Origin: Solirubrobacteraceae bacterium
GTDB lineage: Bacteria > Actinomycetota > Thermoleophilia > Solirubrobacterales > Solirubrobacteraceae
Length of the DNA: 64,000 nt
Assembly: GCA_029263125.1 (NCBI GenBank)
Contig: JAJCYD010000004.1
Location: forward strand, 62,001-126,000
Reading direction: 5' to 3'
Shown: piece by piece, positions 1-14,404 of the stretch
Numbering within the stretch: position 1 is the stretch's first letter
How the letters are laid out: every line of letters starts with the position of its first letter
Notes under the pieces: generated by a model
The model's database searches: none
Told to the model about the DNA's origin: nothing
Seen by the model: only the letters and a program-made list of their open reading frames with translations
Position numbers and translations under genes: made by a program

Positions 1-1750
1 GTGCGATCGCCGGCCGCGCGGAGCCGTTGCGGCGCCGCGTGGCGCTGCTGTCGGCCGGCTTGATCACGGCGGGCGCGGCTGGCGCGGCGCCGTTCACCGA
101 AGCGGGGGGCCGCAGCCGGCCCGGAGGCGAGGTGACGTGCGCGGTGAAGGTCTGCGGGTCGATGCGCCCATCGACGAGCGCGACGAGACGGTCGAGCGTC
201 GCCGACGGCAGGCCCTCGCGGCGCAGCGTCTGCGCGAGCAGCGCGACACCATCGAGCGCTTCGCTGGACTGCCCGAGCTCGTCGCCGATGTGCGATGCGA
301 TCATCCCTGTTCCCAACAGCTCACCTGCCCGGCGGTTGCGGCTGCCCTCGGCGATCACCGTCGCGACGAGGTCACCGGCCCCCGCGAGTCCCGCGAAGGT
401 CTGCGGGTCCGCTCCGCGCGCGCGTGCCAGCGCGTCGATCTCGGCGACGACCTTGCCGGCGGCGGCGCCCGCGGCGTTCGGAGAGCTGACGCCCGCGACG
501 GCCGCGGCCAGCGCCGCGGCGTTCTTGGCGGTGCCGGCGAGCTCGACGCCGACGACGTCGCGCGTGCTGGAGGCGTCGAAGCCGGCGCGCCGCAGCAGGC
601 GCTGCAGCTGCGTGGCGAACACGCCGTCAACGGATCCGACGACCAGCGACGCGCCGTGCTCCAGCGCGTCGGCCGCGTGACCGGGACCGCCGATGCAGGC
701 GACCGCGCGCGCACTGACGCGCTCGGAGACATACGCGCTGGGAAGCGTGCCAAGCGGCGCCACGAGGCCCTTGGACATCACGAGCACGCTGGAGCGCTCT
801 GCAATGGCCGCTCCCTGCGCCTCGACGGCAGCTGCCAGTGCATTCGCCGGAACGGCGAAGCAGACGATGTCGGCGCGGCTGAGCACGAGCTCGGCCGCGG
901 TCGTCACGCGCACGTCATCGGGCAGGCAAACGTCGGGGAGGTAGTGCTCGTTGACGCGCTCCTCGCGCAGGCGCCGGGCCTGCTCGGCCGTACGGCAGCC
1001 GAGTTCGACTTCGACGCCCGCTCGGGCGAGCGCGACCGCCAGACCGGTTCCCCAGGCGCCGGCGCCGACGATGGCCGCGCGGCGCAGCGGCGCGGTGCCG
1101 CCCAGCCACTCCCACTGCAGCTCGACGTTCGGCCAGACGCGTTCCATGACCGCGCGGGCGAGCTGCGGCGAGGGCTCGTCGATACGCGAGAAGCGCAGCG
1201 GCGCGCCGCAGCGCATGCTGACCTTGTGCGGGCGGATGCGCCAGCCGCGGCGCACGGCTTCGCTGCCGATGATCGCGACGGGGACGATCGGGGCGCCCGT
1301 CTCCAGCGCGAGGCGTCCGACGCCGCGCTTGGGCGTGCCCAGGCCGCCCGGTCGCGTGCGCGTGCCCTCGGGAAAGATCACGACGCAGTCGCCGCGCTCG
1401 AGAATCCGCCGGGCGGTGTCCATCGCGTCGCGGTCACCGTTGCCGCGGTCGACGGGAAACGCTCCGAGGGAGCTCAGCCACCACGCGATCACCGGGTTGC
1501 TGAACAGCTCGCGCTTGGCGATGAAGTACACGGGGCGCTTGACGAGCGTGCCGATCACGAACGGATCGAGGAACGAGCGGTGGTTGGACGCGATGATCAC
1601 GCCGCCCGTGCTCGGGATGTGCTCGCGGCCGATGCGGCGCATGCGGAAGTACAGGAGGAAGAACGGCTCCAGGACCGCGCGCGAGAGCCAGTACACCAGC
1701 GGGTTGACACCGCGCCCGCGAGCGCGCGCCAAGAACTGATTGCGATCCAT
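1..1750 (-). CDS. Fused PlsC-GpsA: lysophosphatidate acyltransferase + glycerol-3-phosphate dehydrogenase (3' end cut off)
   Basis: One uninterrupted reading frame carries two consecutive steps of phospholipid head-group synthesis. Residues 1-220 are a PlsC/AGPAT acyltransferase, with the HX4D catalytic block NHRSFLDP and the phosphate-binding block FPEGTRTRPG. After a linker of about 10 residues, GpsA starts near residue 226 with a Rossmann fold (GAGAWGT at about 230) and later the substrate/catalytic segment GVELAGTAKNAAAL. I followed the codons across the junction and saw no stop or frame change. The start is ATG at 1750; no Shine-Dalgarno is visible, and a TATCCG sequence lies 5 bases upstream. 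The end lies beyond base 1, after a Pro/Ala-rich tail. In many actinobacteria plsC and gpsA are adjacent separate genes. Fusion could channel glycerol-3-phosphate into phosphatidate, which is inference. It probably acts at the inner membrane face. Confidence 0.9.
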   Translation of the reverse strand, partial: MDRNQFLARARGRGVNPLVYWLSRAVLEPFFLLYFRMRRIGREHIPSTGGVIIASNHRSFLDPFVIGTLVKRPVYFIAKRELFSNPVIAWWLSSLGAFPVDRGNGDRDAMDTARRILERGDCVVIFPEGTRTRPGGLGTPKRGVGRLALETGAPIVPVAIIGSEAVRRGWRIRPHKVSMRCGAPLRFSRIDEPSPQLARAVMERVWPNVELQWEWLGGTAPLRRAAIVGAGAWGTGLAVALARAGVEVELGCRTAEQARRLREERVNEHYLPDVCLPDDVRVTTAAELVLSRADIVCFAVPANALAAAVEAQGAAIAERSSVLVMSKGLVAPLGTLPSAYVSERVSARAVACIGGPGHAADALEHGASLVVGSVDGVFATQLQRLLRRAGFDASSTRDVVGVELAGTAKNAAALAAAVAGVSSPNAAGAAAGKVVAEIDALARARGADPQTFAGLAGAGDLVATVIAEGSRNRRAGELLGTGMIASHIGDELGQSSEALDGVALLAQTLRREGLPSATLDRLVALVDGRIDPQTFTAHVTSPPGRLRPPASVNGAAPAAPAVIKPADSSATRRRNGSARPAIA

Positions 1751-2656: not shown

Positions 2657-2796
2657 ATGACGGGCGCGGTGTGTTGGTCACGCGAGGCGCTCCGCAGCGC
2701 AGGCTAGCGCCCCACGCGACGAGCCCGAGGCGCCCGCGATGGCGAGGGATTGCCCGCCGCCACCGTCCCGGCCTTCTGGCACCCTTCTGCGAGCAC

Positions 2797-4101
2797 ATGG
2801 CCCGAACCACGCGCGTCGTCGAGCAGAGGAAGGATCACGCCGCCAGCGACGCCGGCGTCGGCAACCTGCTCGCAGGCGACGGATTCCGCGGCATCGGGAT
2901 GCTGCTGATCTTCATCGCGCACGTGCTCGCGAACACCGACCCGGCGCCCACGCTGGAGAACTACGGCTGGGCCAAGCAGCCGATCGCGCGGATCGACCTC
3001 GCGCTGTCGACGTTCTTCGCACTGTCGGGCTACTTCATCGCACGGCCGTTCCTGCGCTCGTTCGTCCTGAACACCAGGCGGCCGTCGGTGCGGCGCTACC
3101 TGCGAAACCGCGCCCTGCGGATCATGCCCGCGTTCTACATCATCGTCACGATCGTCATGCTGCGCTTCGGCTTGGATGGCGCGATCGGCCCGACGCCGGA
3201 CAACCCCGGCGGGACCGGCGCCGAGTCGAACTGGTTGCAAGTCCTGTCGGTCTACACGTTCACGCAGAGCTACACCGGCGGCTCGGTCACGCTGCCGATC
3301 GGGCAGGGCTGGACGCTGGATGTCGAGGTGGCGTTCTACCTCGCGATCCCGCTTGCGGCGATGATCGCCTACCGCGTCGGCCAGCCGCTGAAGACCCCCC
3401 GCACGCGAGCGATCGCCGCGCTGTGCTTCATCGGCGGGCTCACGCTCGTCAGCATCACGCTGCGCCAGCTCGCCGACAACTCGTTCGAGCTGCTGACAAG
3501 CCCCCCGCTGATCGTCTACGTCTTCCTGCCGGGCATCGCGCTCGCGGTCATCGAACCGTTCGTCGTGCCCTACTTCCGCGATCAACCCGAGCGCGCAAGG
3601 CGCTTCATCTGGGGAGCCGTCGCGGTCTGCGTGCTGTGCTGGTTTCTCTACATGCGCTGGGACTACGAGGCAGGGACGACGCAGATCCACCACGCGCTCG
3701 GCCGCCGCTCGCTGTTGCAGGCGATCTTCGGGTTCTCCCTCGTCGGCGCGATGATCGTCGTGCAGCTTGGGACGAACACGGTGCCGCGCTGGCTGGACAA
3801 CCGCTGGACGACCTGGCTCGGCGTGCGCTCCTACGCCTTCTATCTGATCCATGTGTGGGTGATCCTCGAGGTCATCCACGTCGCCGGCACGAACCTCGAG
3901 CCGTTCGTGCTCGGGCTGATCGTCTTCTTCGTCGGCTTCCCGATCTCGTGCGCGCTCGCCGGCCTGTCGTGGAAGTACGTCGAGGAGCCGTGCCTGCAAC
4001 GGCGGCTGCCGTGGGCGCCCGGGCTGCGACCGATGAAGGGCAAGGCACACGAGGTCCGCGATCCCAAGACCGAGCCGGAGCCCGAGAAAGCGCCGGTCTA
4101 G
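2797..4101 (+). CDS. Acyltransferase-3 (OafA/YrhL-like) integral membrane protein
   Basis: A 434-residue polytopic protein with about ten membrane segments. It shows the family's N-terminal motif GDGFRGIGMLLIFIAHV with the conserved His, followed by the cytoplasmic segment RRYLRNRALRIMPAFY. The C-terminal part has WTTWLGVRSYAFYLIHVW and a basic tail. Family members move acetyl or other acyl groups onto cell-surface sugars or lipids. The start is ATG 2797; an earlier in-frame start at 2671 would add an Arg/Pro-rich stretch atypical of the family. The TAG stop coincides with the CTAG at the left edge of the palindromic element, so an insertion may have set the 3' end. It lies beside a glycosyltransferase and a PKS with its own acyltransferase, suggesting surface glycan modification; the substrate is unknown. 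Confidence 0.85.
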   Translation: MARTTRVVEQRKDHAASDAGVGNLLAGDGFRGIGMLLIFIAHVLANTDPAPTLENYGWAKQPIARIDLALSTFFALSGYFIARPFLRSFVLNTRRPSVRRYLRNRALRIMPAFYIIVTIVMLRFGLDGAIGPTPDNPGGTGAESNWLQVLSVYTFTQSYTGGSVTLPIGQGWTLDVEVAFYLAIPLAAMIAYRVGQPLKTPRTRAIAALCFIGGLTLVSITLRQLADNSFELLTSPPLIVYVFLPGIALAVIEPFVVPYFRDQPERARRFIWGAVAVCVLCWFLYMRWDYEAGTTQIHHALGRRSLLQAIFGFSLVGAMIVVQLGTNTVPRWLDNRWTTWLGVRSYAFYLIHVWVILEVIHVAGTNLEPFVLGLIVFFVGFPISCALAGLSWKYVEEPCLQRRLPWAPGLRPMKGKAHEVRDPKTEPEPEKAPV

Positions 4102-4282
4102 TGGGCCATCCAGAAATGTTGCACCTCAAACGCCGGGCGCCGATCACCGCCATGCGGCGTCCTCGGATCTCGATGTGGCAGAGCCACACCTTCGATCCTG
4201 CGCCCTTGCGGGCGCCGCTGTCGAAGCCGGTGGTCGGCGCCGGCATCCCGGCGTTTCAGGCACAACGTCCCTGGACGACCCA
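4102..4282. mobile_element. MITE-like palindromic element, 181 bp, flanked by CTAG
   Basis: The first and last 36 bases are inverted repeats (28 of 36 identical), opening TGGGYCRTCC and reaching AAACGCCGGG. CTAG stands on both sides (4098-4101 and 4283-4286), like a 4-bp target duplication; since CTAG is palindromic it could also be the outermost part of the repeat. The arms continue imperfectly to a central hairpin GTGGC-AGA-GCCAC (4175-4187), so the element can fold end to end. It has no transposase. Most arm differences are transitions, and six of seven become G-U pairs in leftward RNA (only one in rightward RNA), so leftward RNA folds better. The left edge supplies the stop codon of the acyltransferase gene, and the right edge lies 2 bases before the glycosyltransferase start. 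Confidence 0.65.
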
Positions 4283-4288
4283 CTAGCG

Positions 4289-5269
4289 ATGCCGGTGGTG
4301 TCGGTCCTGATCGTCACCTACGACCATGGCGACGAGATCGGCGCGTGCCTCGGCGGCGCGCTCGCGCAAACGGCTGACGACCTGGCGGTCGAGATCGTCG
4401 TCGCCGACAACGCGTCCGGCGATGACACGGCGGCGCGCGTGGCCGCGTGCGCGGACGACCGGGTGCGGCTGCTGCAGATGGGATCCAACCGCGGCTTCGC
4501 GGCCGCGGTGAATGCGGCGTTCGACGCCTCGACCGGTGAGCACGTGCTGATCCTCAACCCCGACTGCGTGATGGACCCCGGCTGCGCCGGCGCGCTGCGC
4601 GAGCACCTGCGCGTTCGGCCGAGGGTCGCGCTTGCCGCGGCGCTGCTGCGCGATCCGGACGGCACGCCGCAGCTGCACGCCCGGCGCGACGCGGGACTGG
4701 GCGGAGCGCTGTGGGCGTTCACGGCGACAGGGCGGCGCATCGACGCCGGTCTGCGCGGCGGCCGCGCGCTTGCCGCGCGGCGCTACGAGGACCTGTGGGC
4801 CGGCGGAGCGCCGCGCGAGCCGGTCGCCGTCTTCTGCCCGGCGGCGGCGTGCGTGATGGCCGCGCGGGACGACCTCTCCCCCGCGCCGCTGGACGAGCGC
4901 TTCCCGCTGTTCTTCAACGACGGCGACCTCTGCGCGCGGTTGCGCGACGCCGGCCGCGGCGTGGAGATCGTTCCGGCCGCGACCGCCGTCCACGGCTATG
5001 GGACGAGCGTGAAGCGCGCGCAGCGGGCCGATCCCGCGCGAATGCGTGCCGAGTGGGTGGCCTCGCTGCGCCGCTACGCCGCCTGCCACTGGTCGCGGCC
5101 GCAGCGTGCGGCGCTGCCGGCGCTGCTGCTCGCCGACGTCGCGGTCGGCGCGCTGCTGTGCGTGGCCGGGCGCGAAGATCCGCGCGAGGTGCGCGGCACG
5201 CTGGGCGGCCTGGGCCTGCCGGGCGGTCCGCCGCCGCTGCTGACGCCGACGCGTCGACGCCACCGGTAG
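4289..5269 (+). CDS. GT2-family glycosyltransferase (rhamnosyltransferase-like)
   Basis: A 326-residue GT-A fold enzyme. It opens with the nucleotide-sugar motif PVVSVLIVTYDHG, then VVADNASGDDTA and the metal-binding segment LILNPDCVMDPG (DxD-like NPD). A second acidic motif, FPLFFNDGDLCARLRDAG, is typical of WbbL-like rhamnosyltransferases. It probably adds one sugar to a lipid-linked or surface glycan at the inner membrane face; donor and acceptor cannot be read from sequence. The C-terminal hydrophobic stretch near residue 285 may be a membrane anchor. ATG 4289 is used, with no Shine-Dalgarno because the palindromic element ends 7 bases upstream. An earlier in-frame start at 4175 would lie inside that element. 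Confidence 0.85.
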   Translation: MPVVSVLIVTYDHGDEIGACLGGALAQTADDLAVEIVVADNASGDDTAARVAACADDRVRLLQMGSNRGFAAAVNAAFDASTGEHVLILNPDCVMDPGCAGALREHLRVRPRVALAAALLRDPDGTPQLHARRDAGLGGALWAFTATGRRIDAGLRGGRALAARRYEDLWAGGAPREPVAVFCPAAACVMAARDDLSPAPLDERFPLFFNDGDLCARLRDAGRGVEIVPAATAVHGYGTSVKRAQRADPARMRAEWVASLRRYAACHWSRPQRAALPALLLADVAVGALLCVAGREDPREVRGTLGGLGLPGGPPPLLTPTRRRHR

Positions 5270-5288
5270 CCGCGACCGCGTCGCCCCG

Positions 5289-5452
5289 CTGGGCGGCTTC
5301 TGCATGACCCGCACGCAACACCCGCCCAAGACCCCGGCCGCCACCCGCCCAAGCCTCACGCTGGGCGGCTTCTGCATCACCCGCACGCAACACCCGCCCA
5401 AGCCTCCGGCCGCCACCCGCCCAAGCCTCCGGCCGGCACCCGCCCAAGCCTC
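5289..5452. repeat. Tandem 72-bp repeats with hairpins; likely bidirectional terminator
   Basis: Two 72-bp units start at 5289 and 5361, followed by a partial third. The core CACCCGCCCAAG occurs five times. Each full unit opens CTGGGCGG and later carries CCGCCCAAG, giving an 8-bp stem in RNA of either strand. The block fills the gap between the 3' ends of the convergent glycosyltransferase and PKS genes, so termination is a reasonable role, but no T-tract follows. Translated products would be low-complexity and are not believed. Confidence 0.75.
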
Positions 5453-5473
5453 GCGCGTCTCGTCGAGACGCCG

Positions 5474-8400
5474 TCAGACGACGTCGGCGGGCGCGTCCAG
5501 CGGGCGGATGGCACTGGCCGGCACGCCCGCCAGCAGGTGCCCGCCCGGGTACTCGCCGCCGGTCAGCACGGAGCCGGTCGCGACCATCGCGTTGCGCCCG
5601 ACGTGCGATCCGCGCAGGATCAGCGCGTTGGTGCCGACGAAGACGTTGCTCTCGACGATCACCGGCGTCGACAGGACCGGCTGGCGCGCGACATGGGTGT
5701 CCGAGCCGTCGTGCGTGCGATCGGAGTCCATGACCGTGACGCCCTCCGCGAGACCGACGCGATCGCCGAGCTCGATGCGCTCGTGGCAGTGGATCGTCAC
5801 GTTGCGCCCGACGATCGCCGACTCACCGATGACGAGCGTGCCCTTGGACTTCAGCTCGCTGCCGTCGCGCACCTGCGCGAGCGGACCGAAGCGCATCGTG
5901 CCGCCCCACGGCTGGATCCGGATGCGGTTCTGGAAGTGGCAGCCGTCCCCGATCTCGATCGTGGCATCGACGTGCGTCCAGAGGTCGAAGGTCAGGTCAC
6001 GGCCGAAGCGGCAGTCGCGCCCGATGCGCAGCGTCAGCGAGCCACGGCCCTCGCCGATCGTGTCGATGGCGATGTGGGGCAGGTCGTCGAAGCGCGGAAC
6101 GCCATCGATCGTCGCGGTGAAGTGGCACCCCAGCCGCGCCAGGCGCGCACGCGTCTGCAGGACCCAGGCAGCAAAGCGCGCGCTGCGAACGACGTTGGCG
6201 GCGGTGCCGAGCACAGCGCCACGGTAGCCGCGATCGGGCTGACCATCCCCTACCGGCGACGCGGCGGGCATCGCCGCGTGCACACCGTTGGTGCTCGGGG
6301 TGATCGCAACCGGTGGTGGCGGGATCGCCGCGGCGGGCGGCTCGGCGCCTTCGGCCTGCGAACGCAGGAAGGCCGCCATCGCGACGGGCGTCGGATAGTC
6401 GAAGACGAGCGTCGACGGCAGTCGCAGGCCGCTGACCTTCGCCAGGCGATTGCGCAGGCCGACCGAGCCGAGCGAGTCGAATCCCAGCTGCTTGAACGGC
6501 CGCTGCGGTGCCACGTCATCGGACGATTGGTGTCCGAGGGCTGCCGCGGCCTGCGCGCACACCAGCGTGAGCACGAGCTCGTCGCGCTCCTCGGGCGCCA
6601 CCGCGGCGAGCTGCTGTGCGAGCGTGCCGGTCGCCGCGCGATCGCGGCGAGCCGGAGCACGGACGAGATCGCGCAGTATCGACGGCAGCGAGCCGTCACG
6701 CGCCTGTGAGCGCAGGACCGCCTGGTCGAACTCGACCGCCACGACCGCCGGCTCGCCTGAGCCCAGCGCCGCGTCCAGCAGCGCCGTCGCATGGTCGCGG
6801 CTCAGCAACCGCTGGCCAGTCGCCTCATGGCGCTCGACGTCCTCGCGGCGCAGGTCTCCGAGCATGCCGCTCTCCAGGTCCCACAGGCCCCAGGCGATCG
6901 ACGTCGCGGCCTGCCCGGCGGCGCGGCGCCTGCACGCGAGCGCGTCGAGGTAGGCGTTTGCGGCGGCGTAGTTGCCCTGGCCGGGATGCCCGAGCGTGCC
7001 CGCGACGCTGGAGAACAGCACGAAGGCCTCGAGCTCCATGCCGGCGGTCAGCTCGTCAAGCCAGCGGGCGCCGCCGGCCTTCGGCCGCATGACGCGCTCC
7101 AGGGCGCCGGCATCCAGCGACGCGATCGTGGCATTCTCGAAGGTGCCCGCCGCATGGACCACCGCCGTGAGCGGGTGCTCGGCAGAGATCGACGCGAGCA
7201 GGCCGGCGACGGCGTCGCGGTCTGCGACGTCGCAGACCGCGACCTCGACGGCGCACCCGAGCTCCGCGAGCTCGGCTCGCAGCGACGGCACGCCGTCCGC
7301 GTCACCGCCGCGCCGGCTTGCGAGCAGCAGGTGGCGCGCGCCCGCTTGTGCGAGGTGGCGCGCGACGACGGCGCCAAGTCCGGACGTCCCGCCGGTGATC
7401 AGCACGGTCCCATCCGGATCGGGTGTGCCGGCGGCTGCGCGCGACGGCCGATCGGCGCGGGCCAACCTCGCAACGAGCACCGCGCCGTCGCGCAGCGCCA
7501 GCTGCGGCTCGCCGGTCGCCAGCGCGGACGCGAGCGCGGACTCCAGCGCGGACCCGTCGTCGCCGTCGATCAGCACGAAGCGGCCCGGGTGCTCGGACTG
7601 CGCGCTGCGCACGAGCCCCCACAGCGCGGCGGCTTCGGGGGATGGCGACTCGCCCGCGCTTGCGGCCATCGCGCCCCTTGTGACGATCGCCAGGACGATG
7701 TCGTCCAGCCCCTCCTCGCGCAGCCAGGCCTGCAGCAGCTCCAGCAGCGCCCCGGCGTTCGGCGGCGGCGCCACGAGCACCGCCTGCGGGACGGGCGTGA
7801 CCTCCCGCAGCGCGGCGAGATCGGCGACCTGCGGCGCACCCGCGAGGGCGAGACCCTCCCCCAGCACGGCCAGCCGGGCCGGCGGCTCGCGCGTCGCATC
7901 GCCGGCGGGCGTCCAGCGCACCGTCCACAGCCCCGCGAAGCCGGCGGAGGCCGCGGGACGCGTGACCAGGGCGTCGACGGACAGCACGAGCTCCCCCGCC
8001 TCGTCGAAGCCGCTCAGCCGCAGCACGCCGTCACCGTCGTCGATGACGCGCACGCGCAACGCGGCCGCTCCATGGCGATGCACGCGCACGCCTGCCCAGC
8101 TGAACGCCAGCCGCACCCCTCCGTCGCCGCCCTGGCCGACGGCCACGTGCAGCGCGGCATCCAGCAGCGCGGGATGCACAACGTAGCGCCCGGCTTCGGC
8201 GGCCTGCTCGGGTGCGAGCGCGACCTCGGCGAACAGCACATCGTCGGCGGCCCACGCCGCGCGCAGCGCCTGGAAGGCCGGCCCGTAGGCGAAGCCGCGA
8301 TCGGCCAGCCGGTCATAGAGCGCGTCGGGTTCCACTGGCGCCGCCCCGGGGACCGGCCAGTCGCCGATCGGCGACGGCGCCACGGCCGCGGCCGCGGCGG

Positions 8401-11400
8401 CGGCGGCCGCGGCGGCGGCGATCGTGCCGGTTGCGTGACGCACCCAGTCGCCCGCGTCATCGGCGTACACCTCGATCGGCCGCGCGCCGTCGCCATCGGG
8501 CTCGCCGATGCTGACCTGCATCCGCACGCCCTTCCGGTCTCCCAGGATCAGCGGCGCCTCGATCGTCAGCTCGTCGAGCACGTCGCACGCCGCGTGCGAC
8601 CCGGCGTGCAGCGCCAGCTCGGCGAACGCCGAGGCCGGCAGCAGCACCTCGCCGCCGATCTCGTGATCGGCCAGCCACGGATGCGCCTGTAGCGACACGA
8701 GCCCCGTCCACAACCACGCATCGCGGCCGGCGAGCCGCACCGCGGCGCCGAGCAGCGGATGCTCAGCCGGCTGCAGTCCGGCGGCCGCGACCCCCGCCCC
8801 GGCGGCGCCCGCTCCCGACCCCGGCGCAAGCCAGAAGCGCGTCCGTGCGAACGGGTAGCTCGGCAGCGTCACCGCTCGGGCCTGCAGGCCGGCGAACGCG
8901 ACCTCCCAGTCGACGTGCACGCCGTGGACGAACGCCTCCCCCACGGACGTCTGAAAGCGCGCGAGCGTCCCCTCGCCGCGGCGCAGGGTCCCGACGACGG
9001 CCACGTCGTCGGGCTCGTCGACGGCATCGTCGATCGTCTCCTGCAGCGCCCAGGTCAGCACCGGGTGCGGGCCGGATTCGACGAACGTGGTCACCCCCGC
9101 CGACAGCAACACCCGCGTCGCCTGCTCGAAGCGGACCGGCTCACGCAGGTTGCGCACCCAGTGCGCCGCGTCCATCGCCTCGCCGTCGATGAGCTCCGCG
9201 GTCGTCGTCGAGATGATCGGGATCGCGGCCGCTGTCGGCACGATCGGCGCGAGATCCTTCAGCAGGCGGTCGGCGATCGCATCGACCTGCGGCGAGTGCG
9301 AGGCGTAGTCCACGGCGATCATCCGCGCCCGCACGCCATCGGCCTCGCACGCGCCGAGCAGCTCCTCGAGCGCCGCCGGCTCGCCCGACACGACCGTCGA
9401 GCGCGGCCCGTTGAACGACGCCAGCGAGATGCGCCCGTCGAAGCGCTCGATCCGCTCGCGCACCTCGTCGGCGCCCAGGAACACGGACATCATCCCGCCC
9501 GCTCCGGCCAGCTGCACGAGCGCCGCGCTGCGCAACGCCGCGACGCGCGCGGCGTCGTCGAGCGACAGCGCGCCCGCGACATGCGCGGCGGCGATCTCGC
9601 CCTGCGAGTGCCCGACGACGAACGCCGGATGCACGCCGCAGGAGCGCCACAGCGCTGCCAGCGACACGAAGACCGCGAACGAGGCGGGCTGCACGACGTC
9701 CATCCGCTCGAGCGCCGGCGCGCCCGCGGCGCCGCTGACGACGTCGCGCAGCTTCCAGCCGACGTGCGGGCGCAGTGCCCGCGAGCACGCCTCCATGCGC
9801 TCGGCGAACACCGTCGAGGCATCCCACAGATCGAGCGCCATGCCACGCCACTGCGAGCCCTGGCCGGGGAAGACGAACGCGACCCCGCCGTCGGCGCGCG
9901 CGACCCCCTGCACGGCGGCGTCGTCGGGCTCCCCCGCGGCCACCGCCGACAGCCCGCGCAGCAGCGTCGCTCGATCCCCGGCGACGACCGCGCGATGAGA
10001 CAGCCGCGCACGCCCGGCGGCCAGCGACCAGCCGACGTCGCCGTCGCGCACGGCCGGGTGCGCCCGCACGTGCGAGCGCAGCCGGCGAGCCTGCTCGCGC
10101 AGCGCCGTCTCAGACGTCGCCGACAGGATCCACGGCACGACGTCGCCGTCGTCGCCCTCGACGGGTTCCTGCACCGCCGGAGCCTCCTCGAGCACGACGT
10201 GCGCGTTGGTCCCGCTGATGCCGAACGACGACACCGCCGACCGGCGCGGACGGTCGGCCGCACGCGGCCACGGGCTCGCGTCGCCGAGCAGCGCCACGCC
10301 GCCCGAGGACCAGTCGACCTGCGGCGTCGGCTCGGCGGCGTGCAGCGTGCGCGGGAGCGAGCCGGCCCGCATCGCCATGACCATCTTGATGACGCCCGCG
10401 ACGCCCGCGGCCGCCTGCGTGTGGCCGATGTTGGACTTGATCGAGCCGAGCGCGAGCGGCCCACCGGAGCGCTCGCGCCCGTAGGTGGCCAGCAGCGCCT
10501 GCGCCTCGATCGGGTCCCCCAGCCGCGTGCCCGTGCCATGAGCCTCGACGGCGTCGACCTCGCCCGGCGCCACGCCGCTGTTGGCGAGCGCCTGGCGGAT
10601 GACCTGCTCCTGGGATGGCCCGTTGGGCGCCGCCAAGCCATTGCTCGCGCCGTCCTGGTTGGTCGCGCTCCCGCGCACGAGGCCGAGCACCCGATGCCCC
10701 AGCCGGCGAGCATCCGACAGGCGCTCGACGAGCAGCAGGCCCGCTCCCTCCGACCAGCCGGTGCCGTCCGCGCCGGCGCCGAAGGACTTGCAGCGCCCGT
10801 CGGCGGCGAGACCGCGCTGGCGGCTGAACTCGACGAACACGCCGGGCGTGGCGAGCACCGTCACACCGCCGGCCAGGGCCATCGTGCACTCGCCGCTGCG
10901 CAGCGATTGGCAGGCGAGGTGCAGCGCCACGAGCGACGAGGAGCACGCGGTGTCAACGGTCAGCGCCGGACCCTGCAGCCCGAGCGCGTAGGCGACGCGG
11001 CCGGAGACCACGCTGTACAGCGAGCCGGTGAGGCGCAGTCCCTCGAGGGCGCCGCCTCCCGGCGCGAAGGAGCCGTAGTCCTGCGTGCTGACCCCCGCGA
11101 ACACCCCGGTCGCCGTGCCGTGCAGCGACTGCGGATCGATGCCCGCGTGCTCCAGCGCCTCCCAGGCGGTCTGCAGCAGCAGGCGCTGCTGGGGATCCAT
11201 CGCCAGCGCCTCGTTGGGCGCGATGCCGAAGAAGGCCGCGTCGAACTCGCCCGCGCCGTCGAGGAAGCCGCCCGCGCGGGTCGTGCTCGTGCCCTCGTGG
11301 TCGGGATCGGGGTCATACAACCCGTCGAGATCCCAGCCGCGATCGGTCGGGAAGGCGCCGATCGCGTCGACGCCGCCGTCGACGAGCTCCCACAGCTCCT

Positions 11401-14400
11401 CGGCCGAGCGCACGCCGCCCGGATAGCGGCAGCCGATGCCGACGATCGCGATCGGCTCGTCGTCGTCGGTCCGCGCGGGCGTCACGGCACGCGCGGCCCG
11501 CTCGCCGCCGCCCAACGAGCTGCTCAGCAGCTCGGCGACCGCGGCGGGCGTCGGATGGTCGAAGACGAGCGTCGCGGGCAGTCGCAGCCCCGTCGCCTGC
11601 TCCAGGCGGTTTCGCAGCTCGACCCCGGCGAGCGAATCGAAGCCCAGCTCCTTGAATGCGCGCCGGGGGGCGACGGCCGCCACGGTGTCGTGGCCGAGGA
11701 CCGCCGCCGCGTTGGTGCGGACGAGCTGCAGCAGCGCCGCGCCGCGATCGGCGCCGTCGGCACCCCACGCGCCGCCGGCGGGCTCCGGGGCGCCCTGCGG
11801 CTCCTCGCCGACCCAGAAGCGCCGGCGCGCAAATGCGTACCCAGGCAGGTCGACGCGCTCGGGGGCCGGATCGCCGTAGACGGCCTCCCAGTCGACGTCC
11901 ACGCCGCGCGCATGCGCCTCCCCGAGCGATGTCATGAAGCGTTCCAGGCCCCCCTCGTCGCGGCGCAGCGAGCCGATGACCGCGCGGTCGCCGTCCTCGG
12001 TGGCCAGCGTGCCCTCGACGGCGACCGTCAGCACCGGATGCGGGCTGATCTCGACGAACGCCGTGGCGCCGTGGCGAGCCAGTGCCCTGGTGGCCTGCTC
12101 GAAGCGCACGGGATGGCGCAGGTTGGAGAACCAGTACTCGGGGCCCAGCTCGCCGCCGTCGATGACATCGCCGGTGACGACCGAGCAGAACGCCACGTCG
12201 CCCGACCGCGGCGCGATCGGCGCGAGCTGCTCGAGCAGCGTGTCGCGGATCAGCTCGGCCTGCGGGCCATGCGAGGCGTAGGCCCCGGCGATCCGCCTGG
12301 CCCGCACGCCGTCGGCCTCCAGCGCCTCCAGCAGCTGCGCGAGCGGCTCGAGATCGCCGGTCACCGCGACCGAGCCGGGCCCGTTGTAGACCCCGATCGA
12401 CAAGCCCTCCAACCGGTCCAGGCGCGCTTGCACGGACTCGGCGTCCAGCAGCACCGACACCATCGAGCCGCGACCATCCAGCGCCATCGCCGTGCGCCCG
12501 CGCATCGCCGCCACGCGCGCCGCGTCGGCGAGCGACAGCGCTCCGGCGGCGTATGCCGCGGCGACCTCGCCCTGGGAGTGGCCGACGACGAAGTCGGGCC
12601 GCACCCCCATGTGGCGCCAGAGCTCAGACAACGAGACGGCCATCGCGAACATCACGGGCTGCACGACGTCGACCTGCTCAAGCGGCGGGGCGCCGGGCCT
12701 GTCGCGCAGCACATCCTCCAGCGACCAGTCCAGAAACGGCGCGAGCGCCTCGGCGCACGCCTCGATCGATGCCGCGAACGCCGGCGCCGTGCGCCACAGC
12801 TCAAGCGCCATCCCCGGCCACTGCGATCCCTGGCCCGGGAACACGAACGCGACCTTGCCGGCCTGCCCGGCGGTCCCGAGCGCGATCCCATCGCCCAGCT
12901 CGCCGGCCGCGACGGCCCTCATGCGCCTCAGCAGCGTCTCGGTGTCCGCCCCGACGACCACGGCGCGGCGACCCAGCCGCGCGCGCCCCGTGGCAAGCGA
13001 CCATCCGACGGCGTCCGGCGTCAGCTCCGGGCGCCGCGCGACATGCTCGGCGAGCCGATCGGCCTGGGCGCGCAGCGCCGCCTCGTCGTGCCCGCTGACG
13101 ATCCACGGCACGACAGCGCCGGCCGGGCGCGGCGCGGCCGGCTCGCGAAGCGGCGCCGCCGACAGCAGCAGGTGGCAGTTGGTTCCCCCCATGCCAAACG
13201 ACGAGACGCCCATCACCTCGCCCCGCCACGTCTCGCGCTCGCGCACGACGCGCAACGCCAGCTCGTCGAGCGCGATGGCCGGGTTGGGCTCGGAGAAGTT
13301 CAGGCTCGCGACGAGCTCGCCGCGACCGAGGCACAGCGTCGCCTTCAGCAGCCCGGCGATCCCCGCCGCCCCCTCCAGGTGGCCGATGTTCGTCTTGATC
13401 GAGCCGACCGCGAGCGCCGCGTCGGCCGACCGCCCGACGCCGTAGACGCGTCCCAACGCCGTCGCCTCGACCGGATCGCCGGCGCGCGTGCCGGTCCCGT
13501 GCAACTCGACGTAGCCGACCTCCTCGGCGCGCACGCCCGCACGCGACAGCGCCGCCCGGATCACCCGCTCCTGCGCCTCGGCGCTCGGCGCCGTGATGCC
13601 CGACGCGCCCGTGCCGCTGCTCACGGCGCTGCCGCGGATGACGCCGTGGATGCGGTCGCCGGCCGCGACCGCATCGTCCAGCCGCCGCAGGACGGCGAAG
13701 GCGCCGCCCTCGCCGCGCACGAACCCGTTCGCGCGCGCGTCGAAGACGTAGGCGCGACCATCGGGCGACAGGGCTCCGATGCTCTGCGCGCGCAGCATCG
13801 ACTGCGGCGAGAGGATGAGATTCACGCCGCCGGCGAGCGCCAGCTGCGACTCGCCGGAGCGCAGGCTGTCGCACGCCATGTGCACGGCGACCAGCGACGA
13901 GGACTGGCCGGTGTCGACGGCCATGCTCGGGCCGTGAAAGCCGAAGCGGTGCGAGACCCGGTTGGCGGCGATCCCGCGCTCGAGGCCGGCGAGGGTGTGC
14001 CGGCCAGGCGCCTCGCCGGCCGCGTCGAGCACGTCGGCGTAGTCGCCGTACATGATCCCGACGAACACGCCGACCGCACCCTCGCGCCAGCGCTCGGGGT
14101 CCTGGCCGGCGTCCTCCATGCCCTCGAAAGCCAGCTCGAGCGCAAGGCGCTGCTGGGGGTCCATCGCCACCGCCTCGCGGGGCGAGACGCCGAAGAAGTC
14201 CGCGTCGAAATCCTCGACGCCGTCGACGAATCCCGCGGCTGGCAGCGTCGACGGGTCGCCGTCCCAGCCGCCCAGGCGGGTCGCCGGGAAGTCCGTGATC
14301 GCTTCGACCTCGTCGGACAGCAGCCGCCACAGCGCCGCGCGATCGGGCGCCATCGGCAACCGGCATGAGAGGCCGACGATCGCGATGTCCTCGTGCCGGC

Positions 14401-14404
14401 TCAT
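5474..14404 (-). CDS. Bimodular type I polyketide synthase with C-terminal hexapeptide-repeat acyltransferase
   Basis: A 2976-residue megasynthase. Module 0: KS with active-site Cys replaced by Gln (DTGQSSS, Q167; His motifs kept), AT (GHSQG, Ser 610), ACP (GFDSL, Ser 924). Module 1: KS (DTACSSS, C1154), AT (Ser 1600), DH ([11 protein letters not shown]1914; DAALH, D2082), KR (GGTSGLG near 2335; [11 protein letters not shown]), ACP (GFDSL, Ser 2644). Residues 2780-2970 are a left-handed beta-helix hexapeptide acyltransferase. There is no thioesterase, ER or N-terminal docking helix. Both ATs have GHSQG and YASH, the methylmalonyl-CoA signature. By family rules the KSQ decarboxylates methylmalonyl to propionyl; one extension, reduction and dehydration give 2-methylpent-2-enoyl-ACP. 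The terminal domain may pass it to a hydroxyl or amino acceptor (inference). Start ATG 14404; ATG 14416 is also possible. The KR has FEN where B-type enzymes have LDD. Confidence 0.93.
8381..8423. repeat. GCC/GCG alanine-codon tract in the PKS DH domain
   Basis: A run of GCC/GCG codons encodes about 13 consecutive alanines in the dehydratase region between its two catalytic motifs. It is a low-complexity, slippage-prone tract in a probable surface loop. Confidence 0.8.

Follow-up and report, generated by a model that had tools for sequence, protein, structure and literature searches.

A single polypeptide encoded in the stretch of DNA analysed here (64,000 nucleotides of a Solirubrobacteraceae genome, referred to as the window) joins a modular type I polyketide synthase (PKS) to a C-terminal left-handed beta-helix (LbH) acyltransferase domain. 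Two other genomes of the genus carry the same carrier protein-linker-LbH end. We consider it somewhat better than an even chance that the protein is a self-offloading PKS, in which the tethered LbH domain would transfer the finished acyl group from the ACP to a surface glycan.

Domain architecture of the PKS

The open reading frame (positions 14404-5474, minus strand) comprises 2976 codons plus a stop, and is open with a strong GC3 bias over its full length. The features of the locus are collected in Table 1. Pfam detected two KS, two AT and two ACP domains, a single DH and a single KR, with hexapeptide repeats at the C-terminus, and the protein scored 2894 bits against the type I PKS model NF045894 (cut-off 1740). 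The KS, AT and ACP domains carry their catalytic residues and are arranged in a loading and an extension module, as in a modular type I PKS, and all the PKS catalytic motifs that were checked are intact. An earlier note had read the protein as a loading module, one extension module with DH and KR, and a C-terminal beta-helix acyltransferase, and this layout is borne out by the reading frame, Pfam, the motifs and the structure model. A detail absent from that note is that the loading KS is of the KSQ type, with glutamine in place of the active-site cysteine at the N-terminus of the protein, followed by an AT and an ACP. The closest PDB relatives of this KS (phmmer) are PKS ketosynthases, including the KSQ of GfsA and the loading KS of PikAI. 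Neither an ER nor a thioesterase (TE) domain was found by Pfam or motif scan; lacking the latter, the protein is not a canonical TE-terminated PKS.

Table 1. Features of the PKS-LbH locus in the window (residue numbers refer to the fusion protein)
Feature	Positions	Strand	Basis
Type I PKS-acyltransferase fusion, 2976 aa: KSQ-AT-ACP / KS-AT-DH-KR-ACP / LbH	5474..14404	-	ORF, translation, Pfam, NCBIfam, motifs
Loading KSQ, residues about 5-463; Gln167 replaces active-site Cys (VDTGQSSS)	13016..14392	-	alignment; phmmer PDB relatives
Loading AT, about residues 517-833; GHSQGE and YASH; carboxylate-binding Arg retained; methylmalonyl-type by motif	11906..12856	-	alignment; approximate boundaries
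Loading ACP, 894-960; LGFDSL	11525..11725	-	Pfam, motif
Extension KS, 983-1356; VDTACSSS	10337..11458	-	Pfam, motif
Extension AT, 1510-1830; GHSQGE and YASH; methylmalonyl-type by motif	8915..9877	-	Pfam, motif
Dehydratase, 1882-2153; [10 protein letters not shown] and [10 protein letters not shown]	7946..8761	-	Pfam, motif
Ketoreductase, 2332-2509; [16 protein letters not shown]	6878..7411	-	Pfam, motif
Terminal ACP, about 2612-2678; LGFDSL	6371..6571	-	motif
Low-complexity linker, 2681-2723	6236..6364	-	alignment with G001
LbH acyltransferase domain, 2724-2976, C-terminal; begins with a positively charged helix	5477..6235	-	profile, AlphaFold2 model, fold comparison
Codon CGC, Arg2896 at the LbH catalytic His position	5717..5719	-	alignment
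GT2-family glycosyltransferase, convergent neighbour of the PKS, genus-specific	4175..5269	+	neighbourhood comparison
Acyl_transf_3 integral-membrane O-acyltransferase; possible helper or replacement	2671..4101	+	absent from compared sister flanks

The YASH motif in an AT is taken as methylmalonyl-specific. The acyl group that had been proposed from the sequence, 2-methylpent-2-enoyl-ACP (propionyl plus one methylmalonyl, processed by KR and DH), matches the motifs, from which we infer the product. The window genome (3.75 Mb) encodes a methylmalonyl-CoA mutase and two genes of the PPTase superfamily, and the fusion is the sole type I PKS found in it.

Fold and family of the LbH domain

The Pfam hexapeptide repeats of the C-terminal domain scored 25.6 and 26.9 bits, just under the curated cut-off of 27, and its profile matched solved LbH acyltransferases with an E value of 6e-26. 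An AlphaFold2 model built from an alignment of 43 sequences had a mean pLDDT of 95.3; it replaced an earlier model (21 rows, pLDDT 74) for which Foldseek returned no match at E 0.001 or better. Both the profile and the predicted structure show hexapeptide repeats forming a left-handed beta-helix, as in the LbH superfamily. The nearest solved folds, compared with VIA-align, are NeuO, OatWY, LpxA and LpxD (Z about 20-23; NeuO 22.9, LpxA/LpxD 20-22.6), and AntD gave a Z of 19.8. By sequence, the best PDB matches are MAT/LacA-type acetyltransferases. The domain fell below the cut-off of every curated acyltransferase family tested, with WbbJ scoring best: the WbbJ/WcaF models gave 49.3 bits against a cut-off of 243 (NF007240) and 38.4 against 192 (NF007797), and the LpxA/LpxD models 22.5 against 231 (TIGR01852) and 25.3 against 242.5 (TIGR01853). 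Likewise, the Pls/PosA model TIGR02353 gave 25.1 bits against 423.1 (E 5e-6), and the protein has one LbH domain as against the three LbH/TM repeats of that family.

Conservation and origin of the fusion

Among the seven genomes sampled from the genus, that of the window included, the ACP-linker-LbH end was also found in two congeners (G001 and G004), in a continuous reading frame. Across the three fusion genomes the junction is 65-70% identical and the LbH domain about 70%. An assembly chimera or an annotation artefact could in principle generate such a protein; given that the same junction is continuous in three genomes at this level of divergence, we regard the probability of this as negligible, and the chimera was rejected.

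Between the window and G001 the LbH domain is 71% identical, the KR 61% and the DH 56%, and the linker is the least conserved stretch (42%). The G001 PKS begins with the loading AT, without a KSQ, the carboxylate-binding Arg of this AT is replaced by Thr, and an ER is present; an Sfp-type PPTase gene immediately precedes the PKS gene. Both a KSQ with an Arg-containing AT and an AT without that Arg are known ways of obtaining a short starter. The G004 fragment ends at a contig edge, with an ER-like region visible, and the N-terminal half of the PKS was not found in the G004 assembly. Hence, the starter logic and the reduction level have changed in the genus, and the ACP-LbH end has been kept. 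Since an ER is present, the predicted product of the sister fusions is 2-methylpentanoyl, which for G001 presupposes that its loading AT supplies the matching starter.

The fused LbH domains form one clade (100/100) that is sister to free-standing proteins of the genus g8 (94/99), which fits a single event in which a captured gene came to lie behind the last ACP. Free-standing homologues from the same taxonomic family (G034, G048, G204 and G207) are full-length relatives, 49-53% identical, but unfused, and no PKS was found next to those examined. Four free-standing homologues (L029, L031, L041 and L043) lie among housekeeping genes, named by eye as CorA-like, DagK-like lipid kinase, threonine synthase or LigD. 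Elsewhere in the family, PKSs with their 3′ end present in the assembly terminate in a TE or in a bare carrier protein.

In a wider search, in which the best candidates per genome were scored, no additional PKS-LbH fusion stood out among the matches listed for the order (232 genomes), the phylum sample (396) and the class sample (399). One long-frame match (G034:C4:73827, a frame of 1219 aa) was partial, and a scan of genome contigs revealed two weak partial relatives only. A compact locus in the congener G002, in which no fusion was found (L139, 8479-16424), comprises, as named by eye, a carrier protein and FAAL-like, PKS, thioesterase-like and PPTase-like genes.

Gene neighbourhood

The GT2 gene converges on the PKS gene in all three fusion genomes, and the farther flanks, where available, differ. 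Within the order, this GT2 occurs in this genus only (5 of the 232 genomes). In G002 and G003 it is flanked by a large membrane protein and a Wzx-like flippase, and a GT4 is close at hand (names by eye); no fusion was found in these two assemblies, both of which are fragmented. In the fusion genomes (G000, that of the window, G001 and G004) the GT4-membrane protein-flippase group (names by eye) lies on another contig, without the GT2. Because this locus persists without the GT2 in the fusion genomes, where the GT2 adjoins the PKS, the GT2 must have changed its location, between a place in the glycan locus and one beside the PKS. This context, although indirect, is the best contextual evidence for a surface glycan as the acyl acceptor; it is a point against the model that in the fusion genomes this locus and the PKS are not physically linked.

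Promoter and terminator scans found nothing. Between the convergent stops of the GT2 and PKS genes (5287-5453) there are two tandem 72-bp copies (94% identical) and a diverged partial third, and the core motif of this repeat occurs within the window at this place only. At the edge of the window (2-1750, minus strand), one ORF combines a PlsC-type acyltransferase with a NAD-dependent glycerol-3-phosphate dehydrogenase (GpsA-like), two early steps of phospholipid synthesis.

Proposed mechanism

In the self-offloading model, the KSQ-AT-ACP loading module would decarboxylate methylmalonyl to a propionyl starter, and the extension module would add one methylmalonyl unit, reduce and dehydrate it, leaving (probably E) 2-methylpent-2-enoyl on the terminal ACP. 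The LbH domain, whose ancestor was presumably a free-standing acyltransferase from within this taxonomic family, would then take the acyl group directly from this ACP, in the manner of LpxA/LpxD, and esterify a sugar of a membrane-linked surface glycan. The neighbouring GT2 would take part in making this glycan, probably together with a GT4/Wzx-like flippase pathway. Transfer from the ACP to an alcohol or amine of a sugar or lipid had already been suggested in the earlier note; the fold, the domain capture and the glycan-locus context favour a sugar, and the residue at the catalytic position of the window copy (see below) speaks against transfer.

PKS modules are dimeric and LbH enzymes normally form trimers, so the fusion implies an unusual stoichiometry or assembly. 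We tentatively suggest, as a proposal that falls a little short of an even chance, that in this lineage a C6 branched acyl group, made in cis, is joined as an ester to an exported surface glycan by the LpxA-like beta-helix of the PKS itself, that the mismatch between PKS dimer and LbH trimer forces a hexamer or a larger assembly, and that loading logic and enoyl reduction vary around a conserved acyl handover.

The catalytic position and alternative readings

The column of LacA His115, the catalytic base of that enzyme, corresponds to residue 2896 of the fusion. Histidine occupies it in 41 of the 43 aligned sequences, including the G001 and G004 fusions; the exceptions are a lysine in the free-standing L055 (G208:C401) and the arginine of the window copy, a point that the earlier note did not contain. 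The catalytic histidine typical of the LbH superfamily is thus absent from the window copy, which is for this reason predicted to be inactive in transfer; the histidine has either disappeared recently or been misread in the assembly. Accelerated decay of the domain was rejected by relative-rate counts and branch lengths. Since the conserved columns are otherwise all kept, with Arg2896 as the sole departure, and the branch shows no acceleration, a very recent loss or a base-calling or assembly error is indicated. We judge it rather unlikely, albeit plausible, that the codon reflects an error in sequencing, assembly or consensus and that the window copy matches its sisters in activity: a single A to G transition separates CAC (His) from CGC (Arg), the remainder of the domain is intact and the assembly is a draft of 53 contigs, but the lysine of L055 suggests that basic replacements may arise naturally. 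The substitution of so conserved a residue would fit a catalytically dead LbH domain that serves as a scaffold only, for oligomerisation or acceptor binding, with the acyl group released otherwise, e.g., by the adjacent membrane acyltransferase-3 (2671-4101), by a stand-alone enzyme or by hydrolysis. Among the flanks compared, it is only in the window genome that an AT3 gene lies beside the GT2. However, intact conserved columns and an unraised rate would be unexpected after long disuse, and the two sister fusions retain the histidine, so this explanation also seems to us on the unlikely side. A non-catalytic beta-helix, which the earlier note would have counted as a refutation of its reading, is therefore realised by half: it applies to the window copy and not to its sisters, and because both of these keep the histidine the evidence supports the design rather than the window copy.

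A different objection concerns the donor. In the families nearest to it by sequence, LbH enzymes for the most part use acetyl-CoA, hence the domain could carry out acetylation without involving the PKS. It would then be a glycan O-acetyltransferase with acetyl-CoA as donor, joined to the PKS in one chain but with no part in releasing the polyketide. The nearest NCBIfam models (WbbJ, WcaF and other acetyltransferases), although all score far under their cut-offs, and the MAT/LacA-type top matches in the PDB agree with this. Against it, the fusion immediately after the terminal ACP is conserved, the PKS has no other release domain, and LpxA/LpxD, which are equally close in fold, use acyl-ACP. 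We consider simple acetylation unlikely, albeit plausible.

Comparison with known systems

The earlier note knew of no described system of this layout. The pairing of PKS and LbH indeed appears new in the searchable literature, where no such fusion was found (most subscription papers lay beyond the reach of the search), nor were 2-methylpent-2-enoyl esters of bacterial glycans; working analogues, however, exist (PMC10901484; PMC10522769). In the fungal PKS-cAT LtbA, which makes luteodienoside A, a C-terminal acyltransferase offloads the chain onto glucinol, with the glycosyltransferase LtbB as partner (PMC10901484). Fungal HR-PKSs with a C-terminal carnitine O-acyltransferase (LtbA, Tv6-931) resemble the fusion in having an acyltransferase after the ACP, and offload the chain onto a sugar or polyol (PMC10901484), as is proposed here, but their acyltransferase fold is unrelated, the PKS is iterative and the product soluble, whereas here an LbH domain follows a bacterial modular PKS with one extension. 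In Pls/PosA a carrier protein is followed by left-handed beta-helices in place of a thioesterase, according to a model and not to experiment (PMC10522769). These NRPS-like synthetases (TIGR02353) share with the fusion the order of carrier protein and LbH, and a weak HMM match, but have three LbH units per chain, six TM helices, amino-acid polymerisation and no PKS.

LpxA and LpxD have the LbH fold and pass an acyl group from ACP to a sugar; unlike the fusion, they are stand-alone trimers that use fatty-acid ACP and UDP-sugars, and are 10-21% identical to the window domain. NeuO (the best fold match), OatWY, WbbJ and AntD act on surface glycans or sugar precursors, but with CoA donors and without fusion to a PKS. 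The PKS-LbH layout is a new combination, seen here in one genus (three genomes), and would work in the manner of self-offloading PKSs already described.

If the model is correct, one bacterial polypeptide would both make a dedicated short branched acyl group and place it on a cell-surface glycan, and assembly-line chemistry would be joined to sugar acylation of the LpxA type. The LbH domain would provide PKS engineering with a new release domain, giving sugar esters instead of acids or lactones, and the fusion would be a test case for how a megasynthase built as a dimer copes with a domain that normally forms trimers. Sister species that naturally carry His or Arg at the catalytic position lend themselves to a comparison of activity.
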